DNA of 63,300 bases. Origin: a virus. Position numbers and translations under genes: made by a program. Below, one piece after another: positions 2,673 to 53,410 of this stretch; the first letter of the stretch is position 1, and the number at the start of each line of letters is the position of its first letter. Location of the stretch: the IMG/VR virus record IMGVR_UViG_3300010371_000039, positions 1-63,300 of that record. One strand, written 5' to 3'. Under the pieces are notes generated by a model. It ran no database searches. It worked only from the letters and a program-made list of their open reading frames with translations, and was not told where the DNA came from.

Positions 2673-4262
2673 TCAGGCGACCTGCTGAATGAGCGCCTGG
2701 AACTGGTCTGCGATGTTGACCGGCTGCGCGCCGATGAGCGCCGACATCCGCGTTGGCGGATTGGTCTCCGCCTGCACGATTATGTTCGCGTTGATCTGGT
2801 CTCCTCCCCGCGTGCCGGGAGGCGATCCCGCCTGCGCCGTCCACTGACCGGCGCGGTCGTAGCGGGTGACCAGGCCCTTGAGGGCGCTCGCCCAGATCGA
2901 CGGCGTGGTGGCCGTCGGAGGAAGCGCGTTCTGGGACTGCTGGTTGGTCGGCAGGTCCGGCAGCAGGTCCTTGCCACCAAACTGCAGCTGCGTGATCGCC
3001 TGCACGTCGTCGGCGAAGTAGTCGCAGATCGTGACCTTGTGCGCGTCGCGGATCCTGTAGTCGTTGACCGATCCGTTGAGCGAGTAGGTCGTGCAGCGCT
3101 TGACGAGTTGCGTGGCGCCGGTGCCCAGGATGGTCCAGGGCGTGATGCCGCTGTTGAGTAGCGACGTGATGGTCGCCGGCGTGGGCGCTCCGCCGACGCC
3201 ATTGCGGCTCGCAGGCACGAGGCCCGAGTTCCAGTAGTTGGTGTCGTTCTGGTTGGCGGGGAAGAGCGAGAAGTTCTTCCGATTGACGCCGACCGAGGCG
3301 CCGGCTTCGAGGAGCAGGTAGAGCGCCGCCGAGAACGCGGCACCTTCGCTCGGCTGCCAGTCGACGGCGCCGGCCATGTAGATCTGCTCGCAGCGAGCGG
3401 CGTTTAGGCCCGTGGCGCTCGTGATGGCGTTCGCCGTCGTGTCCATGAAGCCGTAGAGGACACGCTGCCGGATGCCCGTCGTGGGCTGCGCTTGGCTGTT
3501 GACCTGCGTGACGACGCGACCGACGTTGGTCGAATCGCTGTCGCCGCAGGCGATGTAGTAGTAGCGACTGGCCGCAATCGTCGCGAGCGCGTTGGTGTAG
3601 TTGTCGGCCGTCGCGCCGCTCGACAGAAACGTGTTCGCGGTAAGCGACGTGGTCGTGCCGATGGTGCCGGTGCCCGGCGTGATGAGGCTCTGGACTCGGA
3701 TCCAGTTGCCCTCGGGGCCCTTGATCTTCGCCGTGACGGTGACAACTCCAGCGACGTTCGCAGCAGTGACCGGCCAGCGCGTCTGCGTGTTGATGCTCGC
3801 TACGACGGCGGCACCGATCTGCGTCACCGTCTGGCCCGTCGTGATGGCCGTGTCGACGAACTGGTCGTTGCACCAGAATCGAAGGTTGCCGTTGCTCGTC
3901 GCCGTCGTGGCGATCGTCATCGTCGCCGAGGCGGCGGTGCCGGCGCTTGCCGCCGCCGCGATGAAATAGAGCGGCGTCGTGCGGTTGATCGACGTGAAAC
4001 GCAGGAACATACGGTGAAGCTGGCTGCCGGCGCCAAAGAGGCTGATGACGTCCGATTCGGTCTGGCAGGTGATCGCGGTGTCGGGACCGTAGACGACGGT
4101 GTCGGCCGTCGCGGTGCCGGCCGTGGTCATGTTGCCGATGAGAAGGCAGCTCCGGATGCCGCCGTAGCCGGACGCGGGGCCAGCCGCAAAGTCCACTTCG
4201 ATGTAGACGCCGGGGTTGGGGTAGTTCGCGGCGACGCCGACGAGGTTGATGGCGGCACTCAT
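2673..4262 (-). CDS. Contractile tail sheath protein (Mu gpL-like)
   Basis: A 529-residue protein with the sheath hallmark near its N-terminus (NPGVYIEVDF, about residues 16-25) followed by a hydrophobic strand and turn (SCLLIGN). Mu-type sheath proteins begin the same way before the loop-rich variable domains. The middle is Ala/Thr-rich beta structure. The C-terminal domain contains the segment expected to contact the tube (ALIGAQPVNIADQFQALIQQ). Length matches the ~500-residue family norm. The start is ATG at 4262, five bases from the preceding gene's stop. This protein shows that the phage is a myovirus. Confidence 0.88.
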   Translation of the reverse strand: MSAAINLVGVAANYPNPGVYIEVDFAAGPASGYGGIRSCLLIGNMTTAGTATADTVVYGPDTAITCQTESDVISLFGAGSQLHRMFLRFTSINRTTPLYFIAAAASAGTAASATMTIATTATSNGNLRFWCNDQFVDTAITTGQTVTQIGAAVVASINTQTRWPVTAANVAGVVTVTAKIKGPEGNWIRVQSLITPGTGTIGTTTSLTANTFLSSGATADNYTNALATIAASRYYYIACGDSDSTNVGRVVTQVNSQAQPTTGIRQRVLYGFMDTTANAITSATGLNAARCEQIYMAGAVDWQPSEGAAFSAALYLLLEAGASVGVNRKNFSLFPANQNDTNYWNSGLVPASRNGVGGAPTPATITSLLNSGITPWTILGTGATQLVKRCTTYSLNGSVNDYRIRDAHKVTICDYFADDVQAITQLQFGGKDLLPDLPTNQQSQNALPPTATTPSIWASALKGLVTRYDRAGQWTAQAGSPPGTRGGDQINANIIVQAETNPPTRMSALIGAQPVNIADQFQALIQQVA

Positions 4263-4266
4263 CGTC

Positions 4267-4737
4267 TCAGCCCTTCATCGCGGCCTTGGGGGCCGACATG
4301 GGTGCGGGTTGCGAGGGCAGCGGCTGCGCGGACACCGCGCGCGCTTCATCGAGCGCCAGCTTCTGAGAAGCCTTCGCCTCGTCCGAGTGCTCGCCGCCGA
4401 ACGTCGGATCGAACTTCTGTCCGACCATCTGCGCCGTGTACTCGTCAGCCGGCCAGAGGTCGCGATCGCGCAGGTGGCGGATGTATTCGCTGCGGTTCGG
4501 GTCGGCCGACGAGATGACGATGACGTCATCGGTCGCGGCGCCGAGCTTTTTCACGAAGGCGCCGTGATTGCGCACCTCACCGGTCTTGCGGCCCAGTTCG
4601 TCGCGTACCTCGACCTTCGGTCCGAGGGAGGCATCGAACGAATAGCCGTGGAAGCGGCGGATGCCTCCCGCCTGCGCGGCGTAATCGGGCACCATGCCGG
4701 TGCCTCGAGCGAGGAACTTGAGCGGCGGATCGGCCAT
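4267..4737 (-). CDS. DUF2635-like protein upstream of the sheath
   Basis: A 156-residue protein (ATG at 4737; a GTG at 4761 is possible). A central part reads RSEYIRHLRDRDLWPADEY, resembling the conserved core of the small DUF2635 proteins that sit just before the sheath gene in Mu-like phages. Here it is enlarged: an N-terminal segment with a conserved-looking YSFDASLGPKVEVRDELG stretch and a C-terminal Ala/Pro/Gln-rich tail flank it. The role of the family is unknown. Position between the deformylase and sheath genes suggests tail assembly. Confidence 0.5.
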   Translation of the reverse strand: MADPPLKFLARGTGMVPDYAAQAGGIRRFHGYSFDASLGPKVEVRDELGRKTGEVRNHGAFVKKLGAATDDVIVISSADPNRSEYIRHLRDRDLWPADEYTAQMVGQKFDPTFGGEHSDEAKASQKLALDEARAVSAQPLPSQPAPMSAPKAAMKG

Positions 4738-8945: not shown

Positions 8946-10064
8946 TCAGTCCGTGTGGACGTTGAGGATGAAGCGGTTGTCGAGCAGGCCCCAGGCCGCG
9001 TAGAGCAGCCAGATCACAACAGCGGACTCGCCGTAGTTGTCCTGGACGTTCGGCGCGACTCGCGGCAGATCTCCGATTCCCGCGCCCCAGGCGCTCGGCC
9101 CGAAGAACTGCGCGCTCATGACGGGCACGCTGTTGCTGTTGTTCGTCGCGATGAGCGACGTGGACTCGAAGAGGTCGAGGCCTCCGACCGTCTTGACGTA
9201 GCTCGCGAACAGGGGGTTCTTCGAGCTGTCGTCGGCCCGCGTGTCGTACTTCGCATACTGCGAGAAGAGCGGGTCTTCCTTGAGCTGCCGCGACTGCGTG
9301 GGCGAGATGACGCCCATGTACTTGCCGTTGGGGAAGCGCGGGATGTTCGCGTTCTTGAGGCTCTCCTCGACGCGCCAGATCGTGTCGATGTCGAGCGGGG
9401 TGTCGCCCGCCGAAAGCATCTGGTTGTCGGCGGTGACGGTGCCCGGGTAGAGCGTGGTCGCCGCGTTGTTGCCCAGGGCGATAAGAACCTGGTCGACGAA
9501 GCGGTCCAGGTCGCGCTGGAACTGCTTGCCCACGATCTGAGCGATCGAGTGCAGGCTCACGCTCGCGTCGAACTTGTCGATCGCGATGGGCGCCACGTTG
9601 CCGTTGACGGGGTCGTACGGGCCGCCGTAGCGCTTGAGGGTCAGCGAAACCTGCTCGCTCGCGACGTCGACCGCCGTGGTCGAGATCGTGGTGCCGCTCG
9701 GGATCTCGCGCGCGGCGAGGGTGAAGCCGCCAGACCCGTACACGGGCCGATTGAGCTTCACGGTCTCGCCGGGGCGCTTTCCGATCTCGCCGACGAAGCC
9801 GACCGCCGACTTGTAGACGGGGTCGGGCGGCAGCAGCATCAGCCGGTCGTATTCGGCGGACGTGTAGGCCGCGCCGCTGTCGGCGATCTGGCGTCCCGGG
9901 ATGGGCAGACCGAGCGGCCCTCCCTCGGGCAGCTTGAAGTCGGCCATCATGGCCATCTTGAAGAGCTGCGCGTGGAAGTACTGCGGCTCGGGCTGCACGA
10001 GCAGCATGGGGCTCGTGACATCGAAGAACTCTTCGGGGAGCGAGTTGCGGTTGACGATGGGCAT
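8946..10064 (-). CDS. Major capsid protein (HK97 fold, N4 gp56-like)
   Basis: A 372-residue protein that follows the scaffold gene. It has the layout of N4-gp56-type major capsid proteins: long N-terminal arm, a beta-rich E-loop region (about 95-140), a helical spine (IAQIVGKQFQRDLDRFVDQVL) and a conserved-looking P-domain stretch (KYMGVISPTQSRQLKEDPLF). The start ATG at 10064 follows GAGG. Length suits the family. No protease gene is obvious, so prohead maturation may rely on the separate scaffold rather than on cleavage. Confidence 0.85.
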   Translation of the reverse strand: MPIVNRNSLPEEFFDVTSPMLLVQPEPQYFHAQLFKMAMMADFKLPEGGPLGLPIPGRQIADSGAAYTSAEYDRLMLLPPDPVYKSAVGFVGEIGKRPGETVKLNRPVYGSGGFTLAAREIPSGTTISTTAVDVASEQVSLTLKRYGGPYDPVNGNVAPIAIDKFDASVSLHSIAQIVGKQFQRDLDRFVDQVLIALGNNAATTLYPGTVTADNQMLSAGDTPLDIDTIWRVEESLKNANIPRFPNGKYMGVISPTQSRQLKEDPLFSQYAKYDTRADDSSKNPLFASYVKTVGGLDLFESTSLIATNNSNSVPVMSAQFFGPSAWGAGIGDLPRVAPNVQDNYGESAVVIWLLYAAWGLLDNRFILNVHTD

Positions 10065-10177: not shown

Positions 10178-10999
10178 TTACTTGGTGAGATTCGGAAACA
10201 GGACGGTCGCGTACTGCGCGCCCATCATTCGGGCCGCGAGCTGGTCGCCCTTGTGCGGAGACGAACGCAGTCGCTCGTAGGTTTTCTTGATGTCGTCTTC
10301 GGCGGTATTCGGAGCCGCCGGTGCGGGAGCGGGCGCCGTCGGCGCAGTGGACGCGGGCGCCGCGAGCGGCGCAGGGGCCGCGGGAGCGGCAGGCGCCGGA
10401 GCGATAGGCGCCGCGGGTGCCGCGGGCGCAGACACCGTCGTGATGCCGAGAAGGCCGCCCTTGCGCAGACGATCGATCGTGCGGAGTTGCGCGGCCGGAT
10501 CGTCTCCGGCAAGGTCCTTCACGGTCTGCTGCTGCGCGTCGCTGAGCGACGACATTTCCGACGACGCGCGCTCGTTGACGATCTGCGAGAGCACCTTCGC
10601 GCGCCCCGCCTCGGCCTCGAGCGCGGCGGCGCGCTCGGTGGCCTTCTGGATCTCCGTCTTGGTGGCTTCCTCGGCCGCCTTGGCGGCAGCGATGCGCGCC
10701 TTGGCCGCGTCGATATTGTCGACTCCGAGTTCCGCGAGCAGCGCCTTGCGGGCGCCATCCTCGGCGTTCTTCTTGGCCTGGCCGAGGCGCTTGCCGAGCC
10801 ATTCGGGATCGGCTTGCGGCTGCGCGAGCGGCGGGATGACCGTCTCGCCGCCGGCCGCGGGTGCGGCAGGCGTCGCCGCTGCGGGGGCCGAGGGCGCGGC
10901 TTGCGGGGCGGGTGCTGCGGCAGGAGCCGCGGTGGTCGTGGGCTGGGCAGACGTCGGCTGTGCGACCGGCGCGGGCGCGCCGTCGTTCTCGGTGGGCAT
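10178..10999 (-). CDS. Capsid scaffold protein
   Basis: A 273-residue protein directly upstream of the major capsid gene. It has Ala/Pro-rich disordered flanks (about 1-60 and 185-235) around a long charged coiled coil (about 65-175, with EEATKTEIQKATERAAALEA). This low-complexity/coiled-coil/low-complexity design and the position are typical of scaffolding proteins. The C-terminal ~35 residues (basic, ending FPNLTK) may bind capsid subunits. Confidence 0.78.
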   Translation of the reverse strand: MPTENDGAPAPVAQPTSAQPTTTAAPAAAPAPQAAPSAPAAATPAAPAAGGETVIPPLAQPQADPEWLGKRLGQAKKNAEDGARKALLAELGVDNIDAAKARIAAAKAAEEATKTEIQKATERAAALEAEAGRAKVLSQIVNERASSEMSSLSDAQQQTVKDLAGDDPAAQLRTIDRLRKGGLLGITTVSAPAAPAAPIAPAPAAPAAPAPLAAPASTAPTAPAPAPAAPNTAEDDIKKTYERLRSSPHKGDQLAARMMGAQYATVLFPNLTK

Positions 11000-12596: not shown

Positions 12597-13003
12597 CAGG
12601 CCGCCAGGCGTCGGGGAAGAGTCGCGCGCAGGGCCTCGCTCACGTCCTCGAGACGTGCACTCGTGTGCTTGGCCATGCCCAGCATCGTGGACTGCTCCCA
12701 GGTGTAGGAGCCGTTGCGCATGGCCAGCGAGAACCGCTCGCAGTCCCGCTCCCAAGTGAGCCATACGAATCCGCCTGCGTCGGCGCCGGGAGTCGGCCGA
12801 CCGAGATGCGGATGCGCGCGGCAGAGGTCCACCGCGACTTGCATCGCGCGAAGCCACTCGTTCTTGGCAATGGGCTTGGCGCCGAGGTCCGCTGGATTGG
12901 TCACGAGCGCGGACGGGTCTCGATCCCAGCCGAATCCGCCCGTAACGCTGGCGAGGTTCGAGATGTCGGCGGCGAGACCGCACATGCTGTCAGAGAAGTT
13001 CAT
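12596..13003 (-). CDS. Conserved-type head operon protein, unknown
   Basis: A 135-residue helical protein from ATG at 13003 (MNFSDSMCGLAADISNL). Translationally coupled to both neighbours. It carries several Trp and Cys residues but no recognisable motif. Likely head assembly by context. Confidence 0.6.
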   Translation of the reverse strand: MNFSDSMCGLAADISNLASVTGGFGWDRDPSALVTNPADLGAKPIAKNEWLRAMQVAVDLCRAHPHLGRPTPGADAGGFVWLTWERDCERFSLAMRNGSYTWEQSTMLGMAKHTSARLEDVSEALRATLPRRLAA

Positions 13004-13647
13004 GCGGACTCGATCTCGGTGTCGATGACGCACCTGCACCGGGGGTGGACGGGCGGCGGATCGAAGTGGTGAGGGCTGCGTCGCTGCTCGCCGTGAAGGT
13101 CGCCGCAGGCGTCGCACGTGCGCGTGTCGAGCGTCGCGTTCCAGGTCTCGATGACGACGTAGCCGCGGGCCCGCGCCTGCGCGTTGGCTCGCGCGATCTC
13201 CGCGTTGAGCGCGTCCGCGACTTCCGTCACGGCGGTGCGCTCGACTGACGACTCGATGGACTCGTGAGCGATGGCGAGCGCCTGCTCCTCGGTCGCGCCC
13301 TCCCGCAGGGCGTTTGTGCGGTATGCGGTCCACTGCTCCGCGAGACTGTCGGCCGATCGCGCCGCGCGCGCAGCATCGTGGGCTTCGTAAATCCGCTCGG
13401 CATCGATTCGGACGCCAGTCGTCTTCACCCACCGCACGATGGCCTTCGCGCGCGCATCCTGGCGAATCGCCTTGATGGCCTTACGGCCGGCGACTCGCAT
13501 CGCATTCTGGACATGCAGGTGCGTCCCGCCGAGGGACGTGAGGCTGCGCGGTAGACGCATCGCCGCGGTCAGCGACCGACGCGCCTTGTGGTCGAGTAGG
13601 AGCAGGACCGCCGCCCACTCGGCCATCCGTCGCTCCTGCTCGTCCAC
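13000..13647 (-). CDS. Head morphogenesis protein, Mu gpF (MuF) family
   Basis: A 215-residue protein. The C-terminal region carries the MuF signature: a Trp then LDTRTCDACGDLHGE, and finally PPVHPRCRC (about residues 165-210), where Cys/His residues form the conserved core. The N-terminal ~110 residues are helical and basic. It follows the portal gene, as MuF proteins do, and is a minor capsid component that may be injected or aid portal incorporation. The absence of a fused C-terminal effector makes it a plain, short MuF. Confidence 0.85.
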   Translation of the reverse strand: MDEQERRMAEWAAVLLLLDHKARRSLTAAMRLPRSLTSLGGTHLHVQNAMRVAGRKAIKAIRQDARAKAIVRWVKTTGVRIDAERIYEAHDAARAARSADSLAEQWTAYRTNALREGATEEQALAIAHESIESSVERTAVTEVADALNAEIARANAQARARGYVVIETWNATLDTRTCDACGDLHGEQRRSPHHFDPPPVHPRCRCVIDTEIESA

Positions 13648-13653
13648 GGAGCT

Positions 13654-16074
13654 TTACTTCTGGTCGGAGCCGCCGCGCTGGCTGTCGTGCATCACGCGCC
13701 AGTCGCTCTGGCCTCCGTCCTGGACGACGGCGCCGACGTTCGCGACGTACGCCATCGGGTTCTGCCCGAGCTTCTTGTAGGCGAGCGCCCGGTGATGCCC
13801 GTCGGCGATGATCAGCTTGTCGTTGTTCGGCTCGTTGACCAGGATGATCGGCTTGACGAAGCCGTCGGACTCGATGCGCTCGACGAAGTCGTCGATGTGG
13901 TCCGAGTCCTCGTTGGCCGGCCAGTCCTGCTGTTTGGTCCAGTCGATCTCGCTGAGCGGCACGACGATCGGGCCGCGCCAGTCGGCGTGGTCCACCCATG
14001 CGACTTGCTTGTCGCTGTAGTCCTCGAGCAGGTCTCGCTTGACCTTCGCAGCGATGCCCGGACTCTCGTCGGAGGCCCGCATACGATCGGCCGGATCGAA
14101 TAGCTCGTGCTGCGAGCCGTCGGGGCCCGCGACCATCTTCTTGCCAGTCGCAGCATCGGCGACGGGCTGCGCCGACTTGCCATTGGCTGGCGCTTTTGCC
14201 ACTTGAGCGGGCGGCGCGGCCTTCGCGGGCGCCTTTGCGACTCCGGGCTTGGCGGCGGCGCCGGCCTTCGCCGCGGGCGCTGCTTTCGCGGCCGGTGCCG
14301 CTGGAGCCCCTGCCCCGCCCTTGGGAGTGTTTGCGTCGTTGCCACCCGTCTTGGGGTCAGTGGCGCCGCTCGCGCCATCCTGTCCCGGCGGCGCGTCGCC
14401 GTCGGCCGACTTACCGTCGGCGCCCCCGAGTGCCTGCATCGCGGCGTGCAGGGTGGCGTCCTGCTCGTCCTTCTCGGCCTTGAGCTTCTCGACGTACTGC
14501 GCGACGTTCTGGATATCCGGGAAGATCGGTTTGATGTGCGCGACCGCCGTTTCCAGCGTGATGAGGTGCTTGTCGAGCGCCGTCGCCGCGTTGGTGATGC
14601 GGGTCGACTCGTCCTGGTCGCTCGGCTCGAAGTAGTCGCCCCACGTGGCCTTGATCGGCGGGTCGAACCACGCCGTACCCGAGCCTTCGACCTCTTGCTC
14701 GAAGCGCTGCGCGACGCGAGCGATCTCTTTCGCGCCCGCCAGGTAGAGACCCTTCGTCTGCTTGATGACGATGCGAAGGAGCATCGACACGAGCGGCAGA
14801 AGGGCGAAGCGCCAGAACTCCTCTCGGATCCTGTTACAGACCTGGACCTGCGGACGGTAGGTGACGTCGAGCGTTTTGCCGCTCACATCGCCCGATCCGG
14901 TGACGTCCTCGGGGGCCACGTATACGACGCCCAGCGACTCCCGCAGGGTCGCGATGTTATCGTCGACGTCATCGGCGAGCGCTTTGAGCGCGTCGGCTCC
15001 GAGCGTCAGCAGCTTGGCGTCGGCGTCCGGCGATTCGTACTGCCAGACGATGCCGACGCCCTTCTTGCGAACCGCTCGCGAGGCGCCGGTCTGCTTGGCC
15101 GGCATGAGCGGCGAGCGCCACCCCGAGGTGTCCTGGGTGAGATCGGCGCCGCCGACGCTGCCCATGGGAGCGCGGACCTCGCCGTCGCTCACACCGGTCT
15201 CGATCATCTGCGGATCGCCGCAGTATCGAGCCGCGCGGTGCCGCTGGCTCTTGCCGATGTTGACGGCATCGATGAGCGAGAGGAGCCCATCGTGCAGAGC
15301 GTGGCCGTCCATCTCGCCCGGCTTCGATTCGCGCCGTCGGAATCGATACCAAATGACCGGGCAGAATCCGAGGCCGTGCTTGACCTGAGTCTTGACCTTG
15401 CGAGGCTCCGGGAACTCGGTGTCCCGGAAGATCTCCTCGGGCTCGTAGATCGTCTCGGACTTGTCGTCGATGACGCGCCGGTATTGCCAGACGTGCGTCT
15501 CGTACTTGCCAGTGACCTTGTTCAGCTCGTCGGTGGTGTAGCGGTAGCTCTCGACGAGTCGCACGACCCGCGTGGGATCCTTCTCGTCAAACTGCGGCTC
15601 ACAGTTCTGCGCGTTCGCCAGCCGCACGACGAGGCGGCCCGATTGCAAGCATGGAAGGAACGCGACGGAGCATCCCCCCATCGCCTCTTCAAGGCCTTGC
15701 TGCGAGATGGTGTCGAGCCGCGTTTGCTCGACGATCTTGAGCAGGCCCCCGTCGAGCGCCTTGCTGTCTTGCTCGGTCAGGCCAAGCCGCTCGTCGAAAG
15801 CAGCGTCGTTCTCGCTCTGGCCCGTCGTGAGGATCGGGAATCGGCCGTCGCCAAGGCAGAACGTTGAGAGCGTCTGGATGGCGTTGCGCGCCGCCGGATA
15901 CTGCACGCACGGCTTGCGCTGCGAGATGGGTGCGTCGCTCGCATCATCGAAAAAATCGGGCCGACCATCGTAGATCGATCCGTCGACGTAGGCCTGTAGG
16001 ACACCGATGCCCTTGGCGCGCGGAGACTGGCCGGCCCGCAGGATCCGGGAGACTTCCTCGGGCGTGAGCGCCAC
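13654..16074 (-). CDS. Portal protein fused to a C-terminal ParB-like domain
   Basis: An 806-residue protein. Residues ~1-545 are a portal of the large SPP1/Mu-gp29 size class: it lies between terminase and MuF genes and has a wing/stem-like layout with a long helical region near 430-500. Residues ~548-700 are an Ala/Pro/Lys/Gly-rich linker and a charged helix. Residues ~702-780 are a ParB/sulfiredoxin-like domain: VPLSEIDW, then a helix and VKPIILV, and the core motif IIADGHHRALAYKKLG. The linker repeats AAPAAKAGAA-type units. ParB-like domains are often DNA-binding or nuclease/NTPase modules; the role on a portal is unknown. No frameshift or gap separates the parts. Confidence 0.85.
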   Translation of the reverse strand: MALTPEEVSRILRAGQSPRAKGIGVLQAYVDGSIYDGRPDFFDDASDAPISQRKPCVQYPAARNAIQTLSTFCLGDGRFPILTTGQSENDAAFDERLGLTEQDSKALDGGLLKIVEQTRLDTISQQGLEEAMGGCSVAFLPCLQSGRLVVRLANAQNCEPQFDEKDPTRVVRLVESYRYTTDELNKVTGKYETHVWQYRRVIDDKSETIYEPEEIFRDTEFPEPRKVKTQVKHGLGFCPVIWYRFRRRESKPGEMDGHALHDGLLSLIDAVNIGKSQRHRAARYCGDPQMIETGVSDGEVRAPMGSVGGADLTQDTSGWRSPLMPAKQTGASRAVRKKGVGIVWQYESPDADAKLLTLGADALKALADDVDDNIATLRESLGVVYVAPEDVTGSGDVSGKTLDVTYRPQVQVCNRIREEFWRFALLPLVSMLLRIVIKQTKGLYLAGAKEIARVAQRFEQEVEGSGTAWFDPPIKATWGDYFEPSDQDESTRITNAATALDKHLITLETAVAHIKPIFPDIQNVAQYVEKLKAEKDEQDATLHAAMQALGGADGKSADGDAPPGQDGASGATDPKTGGNDANTPKGGAGAPAAPAAKAAPAAKAGAAAKPGVAKAPAKAAPPAQVAKAPANGKSAQPVADAATGKKMVAGPDGSQHELFDPADRMRASDESPGIAAKVKRDLLEDYSDKQVAWVDHADWRGPIVVPLSEIDWTKQQDWPANEDSDHIDDFVERIESDGFVKPIILVNEPNNDKLIIADGHHRALAYKKLGQNPMAYVANVGAVVQDGGQSDWRVMHDSQRGGSDQK

Positions 16075-17067: not shown

Positions 17068-18480
17068 TCAGTGACTCGCGAAGTCGCCCGGTCCGAGCGA
17101 CTTGCGTGCGCCGCTCGCGCGCAGCGGACTGCATGCGCGCAGCGCCAGCGCCAGGGCCCACGCCCTGTCGGCGTGGCCTTCCTCGGTGCGGTGCGCGTCG
17201 TACCGGATCGATCCGTTGTCCGAGACGATGCGGCGGATCGCGCAGACGTCGTTCTTGAGCTTCGGATCGTCGGGAATCGTGATCGCGCGGTTGGCGAACC
17301 GCTCGAACATCCCAGTCGCGAGTTCCGCCTTGCTCGGCTGCGTGAAGTGCACGAGGTCCACGCGGTTGCGTCCCAGGTGCTTCTTCAGCATCTCGGCCGG
17401 CACGAGCCCCAGGCCCGTGGCGTCAACCGAGATGAGCTTGAAGTCCCACGCCTGCGCGGAGGCCAGGATCATCACCTGCTGCTCGTCCCACGCCGTGCGC
17501 TTGCACGTCTTGAGGTCGACCACCCAGGCGTGTCCCTTCGAGTCGACGCGGACGACGACGAGCGCCGTCAGGTCGTTCTCGAGGCCTATGTCGAGGCCCG
17601 CGACCGTGAAGCCTTCGACGACCGGCACCGGGCCGCTGAGCCAGAGCGCCTGGTCGACCAGCTCCGTCGGGATGTACTGCTGCGCGTCGTCGAGGAAGCT
17701 TCCCTCGAAGAGCTGCGCGAAGATCCGCGCGTCTCCGCGCGCCATCTTCCAGCACTTGTCGAGCAGCGCCTTGCGCGCCTCGGGCGTGCGCGCGAGCCCG
17801 TCATCCAGCGCGTCGTGGATGGTGGTCTCGTGGAGCATGTACCCGCGGTGCTTCTGCGGGTCCGTCCAGAGCTCGTAGAACAGGTTGCCGATGCCGTTCG
17901 GAGTCGAGACGACACAGAGCCGCCCACCGTGCATCGTGACCGCCGCGGCGGCGTCCCATACCTTCTCGGCCCGGTTGCCGTGGTAGGCAAACTCGTCGAG
18001 GAAGACGTTGCCGGTGAAGCCGCGTCCCGCGCTCGTCGACGGCAGCGCGACGATGCGCCCGCCGCTCGCGAACCGAAGCTCGTTGCCCTTCCGATGGCCT
18101 TCCTTGCTCGCGGCGCGGGCCCAGCGGCTCCCAAGGGCCACCAGGATCTGCGCGTGCCGCTCACCCTTGTCGACGACTTCGTCGGACTCGCGCTCACCGA
18201 TGCTGATGACCGTCGTGGTCTCGCCCAGGAGCGCGAGCAACACGATCTTGGCGGCCACCGTGTGGCTCGCGCCGATCTGCCGGGACTTCAGGATGAGGGT
18301 GAAGTCGCCTAGGTCGAGCAGCCACTCGAGCTGGTAGGCGTAGAACGTCGTGAGCCATGCCATGATGGCGGCCCATTCGCGTCCAGGAAGCGACGCCTGG
18401 AGTGCGTCTAGCGCCCGCTTGGCGTACGCACTGAGGACCGCGAACGACTTGGTCGCCCGCCAGTCAGCGGCCTTGGCCAA
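17068..18480 (-). CDS. terL: Terminase large subunit (Mu gp28-like ATPase-nuclease)
   Basis: A 470-residue packaging motor. The ATPase part has a Walker A variant LKSRQIGASHT (about residues 64-74), a Walker B NVFLDEFAY and a following VSTPNG motif-III-like coupling element. The C-terminal RNase H-type nuclease shows the first Asp in GLDIG, a second acidic site in SVDATGLG and a further Asp in PDDPKLKNDV. The protein cuts concatemers and pumps DNA through the portal. Length is normal. Confidence 0.92.
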   Translation of the reverse strand: MAKAADWRATKSFAVLSAYAKRALDALQASLPGREWAAIMAWLTTFYAYQLEWLLDLGDFTLILKSRQIGASHTVAAKIVLLALLGETTTVISIGERESDEVVDKGERHAQILVALGSRWARAASKEGHRKGNELRFASGGRIVALPSTSAGRGFTGNVFLDEFAYHGNRAEKVWDAAAAVTMHGGRLCVVSTPNGIGNLFYELWTDPQKHRGYMLHETTIHDALDDGLARTPEARKALLDKCWKMARGDARIFAQLFEGSFLDDAQQYIPTELVDQALWLSGPVPVVEGFTVAGLDIGLENDLTALVVVRVDSKGHAWVVDLKTCKRTAWDEQQVMILASAQAWDFKLISVDATGLGLVPAEMLKKHLGRNRVDLVHFTQPSKAELATGMFERFANRAITIPDDPKLKNDVCAIRRIVSDNGSIRYDAHRTEEGHADRAWALALALRACSPLRASGARKSLGPGDFASH

Positions 18481-24159: not shown

Positions 24160-24872
24160 GCAGCCTCCTTGCCAGCAGAGGCGTAGCTACCGTTCCAGCG
24201 TTTGTATGTCTTGATCTCTGACAGAGTGGACGGGCTGATACCAAATGCCACGGCCAAGTCGCCCTGCTGTACTCCCGCTTCGACCCAAAAGCGGAGGCAT
24301 TCAATGTCGGCCACCGACAGCTTCCCCCTCCTTCGACGCGTATGCGGGACCTCGTCCGGACGTTGCGACACCGGGGCGTCGACGCGCGCACGAAGGGCGT
24401 GTACGAGCGCCTCCAACTCCTCGATCGACGCGTCGTTCTTGATTGTGTTGGCCCTGTAGCTAATAACCCATACGTTCCCGTGAACGTACCCAAGCTCCGG
24501 GCGAATACGATCTAGCGTAGGCGACGAGGCCCGGTCGACCTTACCTACAGCGGGAGACAACTCCGTCCCGAGAAGCGGACAACGATCGGGAATCACAATG
24601 TCGGACAGGCGCAGGTCGAACGGTAACCCCAGCAATCTGGCCCTGCGGCGCGCATTCGCCAATAGTTCCTTCTCAGGACACAATTGCCACCTAACAAATG
24701 AAGAGGCTCGCTCTAGCGAGCGTGCACGGTCTCTAGTCATCGACAAGTATACTGCGCGCCGGTCGGCGTTCCTGTTGTGCCAAACAGACATATAATGAAC
24801 GTTGCAGAGACCTACTGCTCGAGCAGGTGCACCACACGCGCATGTACCTCTGGACCCCGCTACGCCTTTCAC
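24156..24872 (-). CDS. HNH/endonuclease VII-like protein with C-terminal HTH
   Basis: A 238-residue protein. It has a small Cys cluster at the N-terminus (CACGAPARAVGLC) and a central motif CPLLGTEL ... SPTLDRIRPELGYVHGNVWV ... RANTIKNDAS (about 97-150), the pattern of a phage HNH-type family in which LDRI/GY/GNV/N residues are conserved. Residues ~190-225 form an HTH (GDLAVAFGISPSTLSEIK). The DNA here is visibly poorer in G+C than its neighbours, suggesting a later insertion, as is common for mobile HNH genes. Confidence 0.7.
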   Translation of the reverse strand: MKGVAGSRGTCACGAPARAVGLCNVHYMSVWHNRNADRRAVYLSMTRDRARSLERASSFVRWQLCPEKELLANARRRARLLGLPFDLRLSDIVIPDRCPLLGTELSPAVGKVDRASSPTLDRIRPELGYVHGNVWVISYRANTIKNDASIEELEALVHALRARVDAPVSQRPDEVPHTRRRRGKLSVADIECLRFWVEAGVQQGDLAVAFGISPSTLSEIKTYKRWNGSYASAGKEAA

Positions 24873-25993
24873 GCTGCCTCCGGCTTCGGAGCCAGACGTC
24901 GGCTTCTCGCAAGCCCATCTTCGATGATCCCGTCCAGCACGTGCGCCGCCGCATCGAAGGTGTATGCCTTCGCGAATTCGCGCCCACGTTCACTCGCTCG
25001 CTGTGCGGCGCTGCTATCCGTGATCATCTTCGCGACCGCCTGAACGAAGGAGCCCATGTAATCACGCGCCGGCGATTGCACCAGGCATACGCCGCTGCCG
25101 TTGTAGATCGACTCCAGCGCATCCGCTGGCGACAACACCACCGGAATGCCTATAGCCAACGACTCAAGCACTGTAATGCTAAAGGTCTCACATGGACTCG
25201 AGAGCTCGAAGGGCAGCGCCACGCACGCAGCCTGCGACAATTCAGATAGCAACGTCTTACGCGGCATCCGCCCAAGTAGCTTGAAGCCGCCTGCTTTCGC
25301 GGCGACCTCGAGTCCATACTTCAGTTCCTGCGCGCGCTGCCAGAAGTAGCCACCCGCGAGGGCTGCGTGGTCCCCCATCGTGATCGTCTCGTGTGGCTCG
25401 CCCACCACGTGCAGCACGGCGTTCGGGACGCGTCGACGGATCTCCGGCCACGCCGAAAGGAGCAGGTGCAGCCCGCGATCGGGGCTCGTGTGGTACAGGA
25501 CCCGTCCCGGCTCCGGCTTCCACTCCACGCCATCGAGCCCCTCGATCGCGTTCGGGAGCGTGCGCCACTCTCCGTGCGGGTAGTGCGTGCGCTGCAAGTA
25601 CTCGGTCGCCCAGTCGCACGGCGCCGTGTGGACGTCTCCCCAGGGCCAAGCGTGGAACGGGAGCAGCGTGTGATGGCTCGCGATGCGAAGCCGCGCGCCG
25701 TTGCCCATGAGCGGCCGCACGTCGTAGTACGCGAAGGCCACGTCGGGCGCGGCGTACTGGCCCGTCTCCGTGATTCGGATGTAGTCGACGCAGTCGACGG
25801 TCGTCTTGCGATCACGGAAGGTCGAGAAGGCCTTCACGTCGTACTTGCCAAGGCGACCCATGGCGCGCACGAGACCCATGAAACCCGCCTTCGAGCCGCC
25901 CCCCCGCGCGCCACCCGTCGGATCGCGCGGATCGAGGACGCAATTGCCGGCAGCTTCCGGCGTGAGGATCATGAACAAAGTCGGCTTCGCCAT
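24869..25993 (-). CDS. Glycosyltransferase, GT4-type (GT-B fold)
   Basis: A 374-residue protein from ATG at 25993 (TGATG overlap). The C-terminal Rossmann half has VLYHTSPDRGLHLLLSAWPE (about 158-177), a nucleotide-sugar binding strand, and the GT4 acidic motif PFELSSPCETFSITVLESLA (E-x7-E type, about 277-296). The N-terminal half has a GGSKAGFMGL-type acceptor loop. Transfers a sugar from a nucleotide donor; substrate unknown. Confidence 0.82.
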   Translation of the reverse strand: MAKPTLFMILTPEAAGNCVLDPRDPTGGARGGGSKAGFMGLVRAMGRLGKYDVKAFSTFRDRKTTVDCVDYIRITETGQYAAPDVAFAYYDVRPLMGNGARLRIASHHTLLPFHAWPWGDVHTAPCDWATEYLQRTHYPHGEWRTLPNAIEGLDGVEWKPEPGRVLYHTSPDRGLHLLLSAWPEIRRRVPNAVLHVVGEPHETITMGDHAALAGGYFWQRAQELKYGLEVAAKAGGFKLLGRMPRKTLLSELSQAACVALPFELSSPCETFSITVLESLAIGIPVVLSPADALESIYNGSGVCLVQSPARDYMGSFVQAVAKMITDSSAAQRASERGREFAKAYTFDAAAHVLDGIIEDGLARSRRLAPKPEAA

Positions 25994-28386
25994 CACGCGG
26001 CCTCTCTTCCGCTCTCCACGAGCAGTTCCCGCATCAGGGTCTCCCACTGCGCGGCGACCCCAGACCAGGCGAACCGATCGCGCGTTCTCTTTGCCAGCGC
26101 ATTGCGGTCTTCCCAGTCCGGGACACCCCCTCGAATCATCAAGTCGCGCGAGCGTGGGCCCATAGCCATCGCCGCGACGATCTCAGTCACCCAGCGTTGC
26201 GCGCCTCCCTCGTCGTTCGGCTCCACATCGATGAGCACCCCGCCGTCGCCAACCGTCTCCGGGAGTGCCCCAAGATGTGTCGCGATGACGCGGCAGCCGG
26301 AAGCCATGGCCTCGATCGCGCCGATGCAGGATACCTCATAGAATTCACGATCGTTGGCGGTGTCCCAGCTTGGATGAAGCCAGACCCCGGCTTGCGCCAT
26401 CTCTTCGTAGAGGCGCGCGGGCGGCACGCGGCCCAGCATCCGCACGCCGCGATCGGCCATCAGGTCTAGGCGCGTCTCCAGCGCGTTGATCCGCGCGAGC
26501 GCCTCGCTATCGCCGTTGGCGCTCGCCATCTTCTCCCAGGTCTCGAAGCCGTAGGCGACCAGCAGTTCCGCGTTGGGAACAACAGCGCGCACGCGGGGCC
26601 ACCAGTCGAGGAGAAGCTCCAGGCCACGCGTGGGGCTCGATGAGTAGATCGCGCGCTCCGAGTAGCGCGGCAGGCCGTCGCACGCTTCAAACATCGACGG
26701 CAGGACGCCGTTACGCGTGACGACGATCTGCTCGGATCGAATTTCCGGGTGTTGCTGCAAGAGGCACTCGCGGTGCCACTCCGATAGCGCCAGCACGCGA
26801 TCCGCAAGCGCGGCGCCCCACTCGCTCATGCCTCCGAGCACCACGTCATGGGCCCACGCCAGACGCACCTTCGCCGGCACCACCTCGAGCAACCGCATGT
26901 CGCGCCAGGCCACCAGGACATCGCACGGCGCCGCCCTGGCCATGTCCTGCGTCGGGCGCCAGTCGACGCCCTCGTAGTGGCCCGCGCCTGCGCCGACGCT
27001 CGTGTAGACGCGCACGCGGTGACCTAGGGCCGCCAGCTCACGGGCCATGTGGGCGACAGCCTGCTCGCTGCCCCCGATGCCGTGCCGCTCGATGGTCGCC
27101 GGATTCCACGCCTCCCATGCGTCGCCGCACGCAAAGACGATGTCGAGGCAGCCCGCAGGCCGCGTCATTTTCACGCCGAGACGCTCGGCCACCGTGTCGC
27201 GCACGTCCAGGCGGATATCGCCCTTCGTGTGGAGCGCCATGGCCTTGCGCGCAACGCGGTCGGTATCACGCAACGCCGCCTGCGTACTCTGGCCCGCGAG
27301 CTCCGCCTCGTAGAGAAGCTCATTCTGCCGCAGGCTCGCATCGTCGGGCATGTGCGCGAGGGCCACTCGCACGCTCTCGAGGGCCCCGCGCGTGTCCCCC
27401 AGTTCTGCCAGCGCCACGTTGAGCGTCGCGTGAATGTAGGCGACGCGGTCGAGGGGATTCACCCATAGACGCGTCTGCGTGGGCGGCGCCGCCAGGCCTG
27501 CGCGCGCGTGATAGGCGATCTGCTCGAAGTCGGACCGCGCGCCGGTCTCGCTCGCGCGCACGTGCCACGCTCTCGCCAGTGCGAAGCTGCACTCGGCCCA
27601 TGGCCTCGCGTCGAGCGCCACCTGCGCCCAATGGATTGCGCCCTCCGCGTCGTGCTCGCGCGCTGCAATCCACGATAGGCGCATGGCCGCGATGGCCCGC
27701 TCGTCAGGATGCATGTCGCGCGGCAGTAGATCCTCGAAGACGCGCGCCGAATCCGCGAATCTGCCCGCGTCGAAGTATCCAAGTCCCAGGTAGAACCGTG
27801 CGCGGCTGGATTCCGGGTCCCGCTTCGTCCACCGCTCGAGGATCCGTAGGTTGCGAGCGAAGTCCGGCTTGCCCTTGCGACGGTGGATGATCGTCACCGC
27901 GTCGGTCTCGCCGCGCGATACCGGTGTCATCTCGGTCACAAGAACCTCGTGCACCGGGTCCTGCCATCGCCACGCGCCAATCGGCTTCACGATCCGCTCG
28001 CGCGTTTGGACACACGTAGCCCGGCCCTTCTCGTCGACCTCGTAGAGATACGGCAACTCGATGAACGCCGTCCCTTTGGGCATCGTGCTGACGAGTTCCC
28101 GGAGCCGCTCGCCGCCTTGCAATTCGTCGTCCGAGTCGATCCAGATCGCAGCGTCGCCGGTGGCCAGGTCGAAGCTATGCTGCCGCGCCATCGCGAAGTC
28201 CGCGATGCCTTCGGAATCGTTGCAGTCCGTGAAGGTCTCGTAGATGTCGGCCAGTGGCCGCGCGATCTCTCCGGCCTCCTGCGCCGTGCCCACGATCACG
28301 ATCTCGTCGACGTGCGGGCGAATCGAGGCGACGGCTGCCGGGAGCGACGGCTCGCCTTTCGTGATGAGGCACGCCGATAGCCTCAC
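25993..28386 (-). CDS. Bimodular glycosyltransferase: GT2 domain, TPR-like middle, GT4 domain
   Basis: A 797-residue protein from GTG at 28386 (GGAGG upstream, GTGA overlap). Residues ~1-190 are a GT-A/GT2 domain: LSACLITKGEPSLPAAVAS start and a WIDSDDE DxD motif (about 98-104). Residues ~195-400 are helical repeats of TPR character (SRARFYLGLGYFDAGRFADS). Residues ~415-797 are a GT4-type GT-B domain with YSSSPTRGLELLLDWWP and an EVSCIGAIEAMASG E-x7-E-like site. Two sugars could thus be added in sequence. Partner gene follows directly. Substrate unknown: virion proteins, DNA or host envelope are all possible. Confidence 0.82.
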   Translation of the reverse strand: MRLSACLITKGEPSLPAAVASIRPHVDEIVIVGTAQEAGEIARPLADIYETFTDCNDSEGIADFAMARQHSFDLATGDAAIWIDSDDELQGGERLRELVSTMPKGTAFIELPYLYEVDEKGRATCVQTRERIVKPIGAWRWQDPVHEVLVTEMTPVSRGETDAVTIIHRRKGKPDFARNLRILERWTKRDPESSRARFYLGLGYFDAGRFADSARVFEDLLPRDMHPDERAIAAMRLSWIAAREHDAEGAIHWAQVALDARPWAECSFALARAWHVRASETGARSDFEQIAYHARAGLAAPPTQTRLWVNPLDRVAYIHATLNVALAELGDTRGALESVRVALAHMPDDASLRQNELLYEAELAGQSTQAALRDTDRVARKAMALHTKGDIRLDVRDTVAERLGVKMTRPAGCLDIVFACGDAWEAWNPATIERHGIGGSEQAVAHMARELAALGHRVRVYTSVGAGAGHYEGVDWRPTQDMARAAPCDVLVAWRDMRLLEVVPAKVRLAWAHDVVLGGMSEWGAALADRVLALSEWHRECLLQQHPEIRSEQIVVTRNGVLPSMFEACDGLPRYSERAIYSSSPTRGLELLLDWWPRVRAVVPNAELLVAYGFETWEKMASANGDSEALARINALETRLDLMADRGVRMLGRVPPARLYEEMAQAGVWLHPSWDTANDREFYEVSCIGAIEAMASGCRVIATHLGALPETVGDGGVLIDVEPNDEGGAQRWVTEIVAAMAMGPRSRDLMIRGGVPDWEDRNALAKRTRDRFAWSGVAAQWETLMRELLVESGREAA

Positions 28387-28550
28387 GATGGCACCTCCGC
28401 CCCTCGCAGTTCCACGGTCGCCTCCAGGCGATCGCGCCACTCTTTTTCCGCCCCGTTACCCTCTTTCGCCGGCACACCGCAGTTCCAGGCGAGGCTCACG
28501 AGCCATGACCGGTACACGCGCTTGGCGTCCTGCATGATGCGGTAGTTCAC
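28383..28550 (-). CDS. Mini-protein before the glycosyltransferase operon
   Basis: A 55-residue frame from GTG at 28550 with GGAGG four bases upstream. It is GTGA-coupled on both ends. Contents are helical and charged (MQDAKRVYRSWLVSLAWN). Good translation signals make it likely real. Confidence 0.6.
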   Translation of the reverse strand: MNYRIMQDAKRVYRSWLVSLAWNCGVPAKEGNGAEKEWRDRLEATVELRGAEVPS

Positions 28551-49749: not shown

Positions 49750-50942
49750 GCCTCCGCATCTTCGCCACTGGCGACAACCACTTCGACTCGCGCAGCGACC
49801 GCTACGCGCACACGATCGATGTACACCGCACGATCGCGTCGCTCGTTGAGCGCGAGCGACCGGACGCGTTCCTTCTCGGCGGCGACATGTTCGAGCGCGA
49901 GTCCACGCCCGATGAGCGCCTGCACGCGCGCGAGTTCGTGCGAGCCGTCTGCCGGTGGTGCCCAGCGGTGGCTATCCGCGGAAACCATGATGCCCCGGGG
50001 GATATCTCGTCGCTACTCGGCAAGCTCCGCACGGACCACCCACTTCACGTCGTGGAAGACGCACGCGTGGTCTCTCCGCTCGCGGGTCTCCAGGTGGCCG
50101 CCGTCGCGTGGCCGACGCGCGCCAGCACGATCGACGACGGGGCGGCGCGCGAGGCGCTGCGCGACGTGCTCCGTGGGCTCGGCGCCGCGATGGCGTCCGA
50201 CCTCGGGGCGCGCCGCATCTTGCTCGGGCACTTCGACGTCAGCGGCGCCACGTCGGGCGCCGGACAGCCACTCATCGGCGGCTCGCTGACCGTGAGCGTC
50301 GCGGACTTGCTGCTCGCGCAGCCGCAGGCCGTCGTGATGAGCCATATCCACAAGGCCCAGGAGTTCGCGGCGGGCGACGTGCCGGTCGTCTACTGCGGCT
50401 CGCCGGTCGCGCACGACTTCGGCGAAGTGGAGATGAAGTCGATTCTCGACTTGGCATGGAACGGCCACGATGACGGCTTTTGCGTGGGGCGCATCCCGAC
50501 TGGCGCGCGCCGCATGCTCCACATCACGGCACGGCACGACGTGGACTCGGGGCGCCTCGTTGACTTCGTGTTCCACGGGGTCGACGGCGATCTGTCGTTT
50601 GGCAGCGTGGGCGAATTGGATCTCGGTCTGATTGGGAGGCCCATGCCCGCGCTCCAGGGCAACGACGTTCGCCTGCGGTACGTGGTGCGCTCCGAGCACC
50701 GAGCCGCGGCCCGCGCGCTGGCCGCCCAGATCGAGGCGCAGTGGCTCGTGGAGGGGGCCCACGCCGTGAAGGTCGAGGACGAGGTACTTGCGAGCGTTCG
50801 GTCGCGGTCTGGCGCCGAGGAAGTCGGACGCGCGCCCACGCTTGCGGACCAGATGCGCGCCCTCTGGAAGGCACGCGGCGACGAGCCGCCTCCAGAGCGT
50901 GCCGCGTCGATGCTCTCGAAACTTTCGGAGATCGCGCCATGA
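49746..50942 (+). CDS. sbcD: SbcD/Mre11-like nuclease subunit
   Basis: A 398-residue protein with all metallophosphoesterase motifs: FATGDNHFD (5-13), LLGGDMFER, AIRGNHDAPGD, ILLGHFDVSG, and SHIHKAQE. The order matches SbcD/Mre11/T4 gp47. Forms a complex with the SbcC-like ATPase. Processes DNA ends for recombination-dependent replication. Confidence 0.9.
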   Translation: MSLRIFATGDNHFDSRSDRYAHTIDVHRTIASLVERERPDAFLLGGDMFERESTPDERLHAREFVRAVCRWCPAVAIRGNHDAPGDISSLLGKLRTDHPLHVVEDARVVSPLAGLQVAAVAWPTRASTIDDGAAREALRDVLRGLGAAMASDLGARRILLGHFDVSGATSGAGQPLIGGSLTVSVADLLLAQPQAVVMSHIHKAQEFAAGDVPVVYCGSPVAHDFGEVEMKSILDLAWNGHDDGFCVGRIPTGARRMLHITARHDVDSGRLVDFVFHGVDGDLSFGSVGELDLGLIGRPMPALQGNDVRLRYVVRSEHRAAARALAAQIEAQWLVEGAHAVKVEDEVLASVRSRSGAEEVGRAPTLADQMRALWKARGDEPPPERAASMLSKLSEIAP

Positions 50943-53410
50943 GGTTTTCATCGCTGCGCATGTCGGGCTTTCTCAACTTCCCCGACGAGGTCTCAATCGA
51001 CTTCGGGGCGCTCCCTCCGGTACTCGCCCTCACCGGGAAGAACGGCGCCGGCAAGAGCACACTCCTCAAGGCGCTGCACCGAGGGGCCACCGGCGACCGG
51101 CTTTCCGGGTGGCTCGCGACGATGGCCCGGCTCGGGGGTCGACCCGAGGCCGTGCTCGAGGTGGGCTTCTCGACGGATCGGGAGTGGATGGCGCGCCACC
51201 GCTACGACGTCGCCAGCGGCAAGACGAGCTGCGAGGTGTTCGACGGCGCCGGCAACATGGTCCTTCCGTCGACTGGCGTCCGCGCCTTCGAGGCGTGGTC
51301 GGCCAAGACGTTGCCCGACCCCGACGTGCTGCTCGCGGGGCCGATGGCGATGCAGGCCGACGCGGGGTTCCTCGTGAAGACCGCCGGTGAGCGCAAGGGG
51401 ATCATCCTCCGGTCTCTCGCGGCCTCGAAGCTCGAGGGCTTCGCGGCGGCGGCGCGCGCGCGCGCCAAGCAAAAGGCGGAGGCGCTTTCGGTCGTCGACG
51501 CGCGCCTCGGAGACGAGCGGCGCCGGTCCGGCATCGACGCGGCTCCGGACGCGAGCCTGGCCGGCGCGGCGCGTTCGATCGAGACCGAGATCGCGGAGGC
51601 CGAGGCCGACGAGAGGCGCGCGGACAGCGCCGTCGCGCTGGCGCAGGAGGCGGAGGACGCCGCGTCGGCCGCCGTCGAAGCGGGGCGCGCGCAAGCTGCG
51701 GAGGTCTCCGCCCACAACACCGCGGCAGCCACCAGGTGCGCGGAGATCGCGGCGGCCGACCGGGCGATCGCCGAGGCGGCGGAGCGCGCGCGCCGCACCG
51801 AGGCCGCCATCGCGGCGCACGACGCAATGATCGCGCAGGCCGACTCGATCCGGGCCTCGGTCGCTCGGGCGACGGCCCTCGACGTCCAGAGCGCGTCGTG
51901 GTCGCAGGCCGTCGCCGAGCAGCGCGTCGCGTGGCAGGCAGAAAACCGCCGTGTGACCGAGATCGAGGCGGAGCTCGCGCGTGCGCAGGCCGCCGAGAGG
52001 CACGCCGTCGCCAAATCTTCCGACGCGACGGAGCGCGCTTGCAAACGGGCGGAGGCGGCACGAGAGGCCGAGGGCCTGCCGGCGGCGCGTGAAGCCCTGG
52101 CCGCGGCGGAGGCAGAGATCGTAGAGGCGGAGGCGGAGGTCGAGCGCCTGCACCAGGTGGCGGCCCGCGGCGCGAATGGGCGAATCGAGCGGCTCCGCGG
52201 GGGCCTGCACCAGATCGAGATCGGAGAGCCCGAGCCAACGGAGATCGCCTCGCGCACGCTGCTCCGAGACGACGATGAGGTGCTGGTCATCGCGCGCCTG
52301 CCCGAAGACCAGAAGGCCGCAGCGAACCGCAAGGCCGCGGCGCTCGAGGCCAAGGCGCAGGCGGAGCAGCGCGTGCGCCACCTGCTGGCTTACCGCGCCC
52401 TCGCCGACGCGCCCCACGACGACGAGGCGCCGGCGCAGGCGCTGCGCGACGCGGTGGCGGCGCGGGAGGGCGCGGCGGCGGCCCTTGAGCATGCGAAGGC
52501 CGCACGAGACGCGCTGGCGGCGCACGGCGCCGAGAGCAAGGCGCGGCTCGAGGCGATCCAGGCGGATCGCTCGCGGGAGACTGGCCCCGGTCTCGCCGAA
52601 GGACTGGCCCGCGCAGAGGCGGCGGTCGAGCAGCTCCGGGGCGAGCTCGCGGCGGCGCGGGAGGCGTTGGCGGTGGCGCAGTCGCGGCGTGCGGAGCTTG
52701 GGGACGCGCCGTCACTCCGAGAGGCGCCCGACGTCGCCGGGGCCGAGCGCACGGCACGTGCAGCCATGCAGGCCGCGGTCGACGCGAAGGGCGCCCTCGA
52801 CGAGGCCCGGCGGCGCCTCGCGACCGTGCAGGCTTCGGCGGCGCGGCTCGCGGAGCTCGAGGCCGAGCGCCTCTCCGTCGCCACAGAGCTTGGGGACTGG
52901 ACGCGCCTCGGCAAGGACCTCGGGATCGACGGCATCCAAGCCATGCTTGTCGACGGGCTGGGGCCCGAGCTCACGGCCATGGCGAACGATCTTCTGCACT
53001 CGTGCGTGGGGCCCAGGTTCACCGTGTCGATCGAGACGCAGCGCCTCTCGGGCAAGGGCAAGACGATCGAGGGCTGCGAGGTCACGGTCTACGACTCACG
53101 CAAGGGCACGACCCACCAGGACGGAGACACGCTGTCCGGGGGCGAAGCGGTGCTCGTGGGAACGCCGATGCGGCTCGCGCTCGCGGCGGCGACGTGCCGG
53201 CATTGGGGCATCAAGCGGCCAAGCATTTTGCTCGACGAGGCCGGCGCGGCTCTCGACAGCGATACGGTCGGCGCGCCGTTCGTGGCGATGCTGCGGCGCG
53301 CGGCGAAGCAGATGGATTCCCAAATTCTATTTGTCAGTCACTCGGCCGAGGCCCAGGCGCTCGCCGACGCCAGGCTCCATATCGAGAACGGGAAGGTCAC
53401 GGTCCAATGA
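50939..53410 (+). CDS. sbcC: SbcC/Rad50-like ATPase without a visible zinc hook
   Basis: An 823-residue protein, ATGA-coupled to SbcD. Walker A GKNGAGKST (33-41), two long Ala/Glu-rich coiled-coil arms, signature LSGGEAVL, Walker B SILLDEAGAALD and a VSHS switch. No CxxC occurs at the apex, where Rad50 has its zinc hook; the turn around residues 415-435 shows RGANGRIERLRGG instead. T4 gp46 does have a hook, so this is a difference. Works with SbcD as a DNA-end nuclease. Confidence 0.9.
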   Translation: MRFSSLRMSGFLNFPDEVSIDFGALPPVLALTGKNGAGKSTLLKALHRGATGDRLSGWLATMARLGGRPEAVLEVGFSTDREWMARHRYDVASGKTSCEVFDGAGNMVLPSTGVRAFEAWSAKTLPDPDVLLAGPMAMQADAGFLVKTAGERKGIILRSLAASKLEGFAAAARARAKQKAEALSVVDARLGDERRRSGIDAAPDASLAGAARSIETEIAEAEADERRADSAVALAQEAEDAASAAVEAGRAQAAEVSAHNTAAATRCAEIAAADRAIAEAAERARRTEAAIAAHDAMIAQADSIRASVARATALDVQSASWSQAVAEQRVAWQAENRRVTEIEAELARAQAAERHAVAKSSDATERACKRAEAAREAEGLPAAREALAAAEAEIVEAEAEVERLHQVAARGANGRIERLRGGLHQIEIGEPEPTEIASRTLLRDDDEVLVIARLPEDQKAAANRKAAALEAKAQAEQRVRHLLAYRALADAPHDDEAPAQALRDAVAAREGAAAALEHAKAARDALAAHGAESKARLEAIQADRSRETGPGLAEGLARAEAAVEQLRGELAAAREALAVAQSRRAELGDAPSLREAPDVAGAERTARAAMQAAVDAKGALDEARRRLATVQASAARLAELEAERLSVATELGDWTRLGKDLGIDGIQAMLVDGLGPELTAMANDLLHSCVGPRFTVSIETQRLSGKGKTIEGCEVTVYDSRKGTTHQDGDTLSGGEAVLVGTPMRLALAAATCRHWGIKRPSILLDEAGAALDSDTVGAPFVAMLRRAAKQMDSQILFVSHSAEAQALADARLHIENGKVTVQ

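Follow-up and report, generated by a model that had tools for sequence, protein, structure and literature searches.

A ParB/sulfiredoxin-fold domain predicted at the C terminus of a phage portal protein and its recurrence among portal types

Published fusions join portal or MuF proteins to PBECR, 2H, inorganic pyrophosphatase, lysozyme, NUDIX and ART domains, and most of them have been read as effectors that are packaged in the phage head (PMC5512222, PMC9503650). Portals are dodecamers in situ; at the upper end of the ring lies their C-terminal crown, in a position to contact the DNA within the capsid (PMC10541612). ParB-fold proteins were surveyed in 2025 by searching phage proteomes with the PF02195 and TIGR00180 models; the survey reported that phages fuse the fold to methyltransferases and DUFs, and the words "portal" and "capsid" do not occur in its main text (PMC12704722). 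Here we describe a portal protein that ends in a predicted ParB/sulfiredoxin (Srx)-fold domain, encoded in a stretch of viral DNA of 63,300 nucleotides (IMG/VR record IMGVR_UViG_3300010371_000039), the whole of which we call the window. Portal-effector fusions as such are already known; a ParB/Srx-type family that recurs on portals, probably as cargo, appears to be new.

Reading frame, portal core and gene neighbourhood

The fusion gene (window 13654..16074) is read on the minus strand from 16074 down to 13654 as a frame of 806 codons that starts with GTG, has no internal stop and ends with the stop codon at 13654-13656. The plus-strand reading of 13654-16074 was rejected, as its translation contains stops. 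The encoded protein of 806 aa is laid out as a portal core (residues 1-555), a linker (556 to ~675) and a C-terminal ParB/Srx-fold domain (~680-806). Across codon positions 1/2/3, GC content is 0.67/0.43/0.86 for the portal part, 0.76/0.66/0.76 for the linker and 0.68/0.33/0.96 for the C-terminal domain; this coding signature keeps the fusion frame through to its end.

High-GC sequence yields long spurious ORFs on both strands, and this was the one point found in favor of an artefact in which a portal gene and a ParB gene only seem to be one, owing to a misassembly, an overlooked stop codon or a frameshift. Against such an artefact, the codon bias is unbroken through the frame, many independent portal fusions exist, and an independent contig (L057) has the identical architecture on a related portal, with a domain 51% identical to that of the window and a portal 32% identical. 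Because the fusion recurs in independent contigs, we regard the artefact as refuted and leave it almost no chance. An earlier note on this DNA, made from the letters and open reading frames alone, had read a portal, a linker and a ParB/Srx-like domain from one uninterrupted frame, and that reading held, with no missed stop or frameshift separating the parts.

The portal part (14410..16074, minus strand) matched the PHROG portal families 104 (1.6e-10) and 64 (6.6e-8); its match to Pfam SPP1_portal was weak (1.5e-4) and under the gathering score of that model. In an AlphaFold model of the full-length protein, residues 1-555 were mostly of high confidence and were followed by residues of very low confidence. 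When the core model was compared with solved portals using Foldseek, the nearest were those of Douge, SPP1 gp6, 80alpha and Bxb1 (E 1e-15 to 1e-13). The protein is therefore predicted to have a portal fold of the wing/stem/clip/crown type, similar to SPP1 gp6, and the portal named in the earlier note is a real one by both family matches and modelled core.

Residues 556-675 (14050..14409, minus strand) make up a flexible linker that is rich in Ala, Gly, Pro and Lys, with a pLDDT of ~30-40 in the AlphaFold model and a charge of +4 over about residues 556-680. An Ala/Pro/Lys linker of about 150 residues had been proposed at this place; the linker is present and disordered, but it is Gly-rich as well and, because the low pLDDT and the biased composition span ~556-675, it measures ~120 residues rather than 150.

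The minus-strand genes follow the usual order of a head module: terminase large subunit (17068..18480, Pfam Terminase_6N/6C), portal fusion, a MuF (SPP1 gp7-like) minor head protein encoded by the next gene (13000..13647, Pfam Phage_Mu_F 7.4e-10), a probable scaffolding protein (10178..10999, phrog_2303 0.0016) and the major capsid protein (8946..10064, phrog_1357 1.5e-12). MuF is a separate gene in the window, and it forms one polypeptide with the portal and the ParB/Srx domain in two other contigs (L129, L114). In a relative of this head module, a gene for a Dps/ferritin-like protein was seen by eye between the portal and MuF genes (L001:5743-6228, plus strand). Elsewhere in the window, 25993-28440 and 24869-26047 (both minus strand) encode adjoining glycosyltransferase-like proteins, the larger of which matches two glycosyltransferase PHROGs, and 50741-53410 encodes an SbcC-like protein on the plus strand, opposite to the head genes.

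Fold, motif and relatives of the C-terminal domain

Residues 676-806 (13657..14049, minus strand; core from ~680), modelled alone with 52 relatives, gave a ParB/sulfiredoxin fold at a pLDDT of 86.9. The best Foldseek matches of this model were PadC, SerK (1vk1, 5x0b) and sulfiredoxin, and VIA-align gave Z scores of about 8-9 against PadC, sulfiredoxin, Noc and ParB. By its predicted structure, the domain is a member of the ParB/sulfiredoxin superfamily, which bears out the ParB-like fold that had been proposed for it.

Among sequence models, the domain matched PHROG ParB-like families (best 1.3e-6), and it also matched a SerK model (4.7e-7) and TIGR00180 (1e-5), in both cases under the curated cut-off where such exists. 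No Pfam model fitted the domain well (DUF1015 at 0.0034 for the window, ParBc_2 at 0.0068 for L137), and PF02195 did not match the window protein at E<=1. When a profile of the family described below was compared with solved proteins, SerK (1.1e-5) and SbnI (8.6e-4) scored far better than ParB CTPases (0.26), and a canonical chromosomal ParB (L241) that was included in the searched set was unmatched by the profile. On sequence comparison, the domain represents a family of its own, without any well-matching Pfam model.

The domain contains the motif IIADGHHRALAYKKLG, which includes DGHHR at residues 758-762 (13789..13803, minus strand). This pentapeptide aligns to IVDGHHR of SerK and lies at the phosphate-box position of the ParB/Srx superfamily. 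DGHHR is invariant in all 55 distinct domains of the family, partly by construction because it belonged to the search pattern. W693, W718, A720 and P742 are also invariant, and H796 and Q799 are nearly so; these positions outside DGHHR were unselected by the search, except that W693 is the end of a second search pattern. The position equivalent to SerK E30 (residue 723, in an alignment that is ambiguous by one residue) is E, D or Q in 49 of the 55 domains, and cysteine is absent from 51. The net charge of the domain is -11 in the window, with a family median of -1. Pfam and NCBIfam scans revealed no HTH after the fold, and the protein stops at residue 806 directly past it.

The ParB-type functional label that the earlier note had attached to the domain (DNA binding, nuclease or CTPase) fared less well than the fold. 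DGHHR is found in SerK and in the ParB domains of polymorphic toxins, as opposed to the GERR of ParB CTPases; the profile scores likewise point to SerK and SbnI, and the negative net charge argues against plain DNA binding. A nuclease or toxin effector that cuts host or rival DNA, comparable to Tox-ParB or DdrB-like proteins, would nevertheless fit the motif, since Tox-ParB toxins are reported to conserve DGHHR strongly (PMC3482391), and ParB-fold nucleases have been proposed as phage-head cargo (PMC5512222). However, a non-specific nuclease packed beside the phage genome would have to be kept in check, the family profile did not match P1 DdrB (a missing profile match being compatible with a distant relation), and the nuclease claim for the superfamily is itself disputed (PMC3482391). 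We therefore consider a nuclease unlikely.

Recurrence among portals and accessory distribution

When used alone as a query against IMG/VR viral contigs, the window domain gave no match; members were retrieved from IMG/VR using a portal alignment, an ADGHHRALAY DNA pattern and a domain alignment. The DNA pattern gave four matches only, all of them C termini of phrog_145 portals, and the domain alignment gave 68 loci with 55 distinct domains. A second family scan of IMG/VR with a nearly identical DGHHR pattern again gave 68 loci and added little.

Carriers were assigned by Pfam and PHROG scans of representatives and by local phmmer for the remainder. About 49 of the 55 distinct domains sit on portal proteins, a type of fusion seen also in the portal/MuF-fused effectors. 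Four Pfam portal families are involved, the carriers being PF05133-like/phrog_104 (SPP1-type) and phrog_145, PF04860 (phrog_2662/12), PF06074 (Mu-type) and PF06381. Since portals of several families unrelated to one another carry the domain, as does the related portal of L057, the domain first noticed in the window is a mobile module and not a one-off.

The non-portal cases are two multidomain proteins (L107, L130) and two apparently standalone copies (L150, L153); two further domains are cut by contig ends (L089, L148). The standalone copies, ~125 aa each, lie among structural, apparently head-tail, genes (L150:~3980-4354 and L153:~3983-4363, plus strand). In the multidomain proteins (L107:3644-8353 and L130:3866-5770, plus strand), the ParB/Srx domain is near the N terminus, and a VGPEGYIHG-like segment is shared with neighbouring ORFs; L130 has a zincin-like HELIH stretch as well.

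Extra domains were found in several of the Pfam-scanned representatives. NUDIX (PF00293) occurs in the same polypeptide as the portal and the ParB/Srx domain in eight of them (L102, L113, L118, L129, L132, L134, L136 and L143), MuF in the two named above and a 2H-type domain in one. The last is a 2'-5' RNA ligase/2H-type domain that L143 carries besides NUDIX. In another portal-ParB protein (L139:1328-4399, plus strand), residues 584-630 form a LAGLIDADG-like domain, which may represent an inserted intein or homing endonuclease.

The portal family of the window has 68 distinct members in IMG/VR, the window included, and their C-terminal tails are shorter than 100 aa in all but three (median 34). 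The ParB/Srx domain is present in two of the 68 (window and L057), a third (L069) has a different add-on, and the other 65 have neither this domain nor any other sizeable extra domain. The L069 add-on (L069:3986-6214, plus strand) includes a TALHEAIE stretch and is metallopeptidase-like in look. Since L069 carries a different add-on, the portal C terminus accepts other cargo.

This distribution bears on a role in packaging or genome retention, implied by the earlier note, in which a domain kept on the crown would clamp or sense DNA near the portal by means of bound nucleotide, in the manner of ParB. The ParB/Srx fold and the near-complete confinement of the domain to portals speak for such a role, as does the proposal that the P22 barrel and similar crown extensions act as fill sensors (PMC10541612). 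However, the GERR box, the HTH and the dimerisation regions found in clamp ParBs are all missing from the domain, whose charge is negative in the window and slightly so at the family median, and which also occurs outside portals (L107, L130, L150, L153). Moreover, all but two of the 68 distinct members of the portal family do without the domain, so that packaging does not depend on it. We accordingly favor enzymatic cargo over a DNA clamp, which we judge quite unlikely.

A tree of the domains, with truncated rows left out, required a minimum of 12 changes of carrier type. One well-supported clade joins the window and L057 (SPP1-type) with L090 (phrog_145), and another joins L098 (PF06381) with L121 (PF06074). 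Every domain pair that permitted an estimate gave a dN/dS of 0.06-0.45. Judged from these estimates, the domain is under purifying selection, and judged from the tree, it has moved between portal types. Taken together, the low dN/dS and the mixing of portal families indicate a module that is maintained and mobile among portals, and its recurrence on unrelated portals suggests swappable cargo inside the virus particle over chance fusion.

Outside IMG/VR, the family consensus had no match at E<=0.01 among 50,697 phage records, an absence that may explain why the family has no name. The phage collection thus supplies no cultured phage with this domain. A tblastn search of phages with the window domain gave only weak ParB-like matches, at E values of 2e-3 and above, in phages such as Microbacterium phages and Flavobacterium FCL-2; none carried a portal annotation. 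The FCL-2 gene (L003:5340-5894) is a standalone ParB-like gene that is weakly related to the portal-domain family; it adjoins a PAPS reductase gene and lies between the terminase and the portal. Against plasmids, the family consensus gave eight partial, weak ParB-like matches. Matches from a scan of genome contigs were mostly archaeal SerK-like proteins and were set aside as outside the family, and the domain was not found in 398 genomes of one phylum, in a search that had no positive control. A viral fold library returned ParB/Srx-fold matches, none of them named portal among the 50 matches listed and many of them nameless. A literature search at the level of main texts found no paper describing a ParB-portal fusion, and the family of ParB/Srx portal domains thus appears undescribed so far.

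Proposed role and comparison with known systems

Our best explanation, to which we give about an even chance, is that the domain is enzymatic cargo packaged in the virion, a ParB/Srx domain near SerK and SbnI that is leashed on the portal crown. The flexible linker would serve as the leash that tethers the domain to the portal C terminus. Since portal C termini end in the lumen-facing crown, about twelve copies would be built into each virion, inside the head and beside the DNA end; this location and copy number follow by analogy with portals that are dodecameric in situ (PMC10541612), in agreement with the earlier placement of about twelve copies at the portal vertex. The domain would be a nucleotide-using phosphotransferase or hydrolase carried in the particle, with nucleotide binding and catalysis suggested by its modelled fold and its motif. 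It may act at the start of infection, as has been proposed for PBECR, 2H, NUDIX and ART on portal/MuF proteins, and the company that it keeps hints at action on the incoming cell and at release from the portal. No cleavage site or released form of the domain was found, and the portal-tethered domain may never leave the virion.

Enzymatic cargo is favored because fold and motif suggest nucleotide-dependent phosphotransfer and because NUDIX and 2H domains co-occur with a domain that is accessory in its portal family, as in the published portal/MuF fusions. Tentatively, and with clearly less confidence than in enzymatic cargo as such, we propose that a SerK/Srx-like, kinase-type phosphotransferase sits in the portal rings of many uncultured phages, facing the capsid lumen, and that as the genome enters it phosphorylates or dephosphorylates a nucleotide signal, a protein or a small molecule. 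Enzymes of this kind would form a new class, carried in virions and serving early infection or counter-defence.

The crown position, together with the standalone copies apparently among head-tail genes (L150, L153), could instead reflect a non-catalytic platform that binds the scaffold or an internal protein during procapsid assembly. An invariant DGHHR and near-invariant H796 and Q799 across distant copies, as well as co-fusion with NUDIX and 2H enzymes, argue against such a structural part, which seems to us very unlikely.

Should the domain be active as cargo, the DNA gate of every virion would hold roughly twelve nucleotide-using enzyme molecules, and the portal C terminus would offer a general attachment point for enzymes carried in the particle (ParB/Srx, NUDIX, 2H, MuF). 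The domain is compact (125 aa) and has clear residues to mutate, so that nucleotide use and an effect on infection are directly testable.

Among solved proteins, the free-serine kinases SerK and SbnI are the closest relatives by sequence profile. SerK shares a KPxxLxxxPG...IVDGHHR stretch with the portal domain, and SbnI reads DGVHR. In contrast with these kinases, the portal domain has ~125 aa rather than ~240 aa and lacks the second lobe, the catalytic acid of SerK is only loosely conserved in it, and a C-terminal W-x3-H-x2-Q motif is peculiar to it. The ParB CTPase clamps (ParB, Noc, KorB, VirB) and PadC have the same fold (VIA Z about 8-9), but the portal domain differs from the clamps in having DGHHR in place of GERR and in having neither an HTH nor a dimerisation region. 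Sulfiredoxin resembles the domain in fold and size; the lack of Cys in 51 of 55 domains excludes Srx chemistry.

Two other ParB-type systems bear comparison. Tox-ParB of polymorphic toxins has the DGHHR motif and is likewise carried at the C terminus of a larger protein, although its carrier is an RHS or filamentous secreted protein and not a phage portal. The DdrB-like ParB domain of the P1 head polyvalent protein belongs to the ParB/Srx superfamily and is presumed to travel inside the head, but it lacks DGHHR. A ParB/Srx family on portals is absent from the main texts on portal/MuF-fused effectors, where the ParB is DdrB-like (PMC5512222, PMC9503650). The portal domain nonetheless resembles those effectors in being an enzyme-like domain on a head-module protein, accessory and swapped between phages, and it shares its polypeptides with NUDIX, 2H and MuF.
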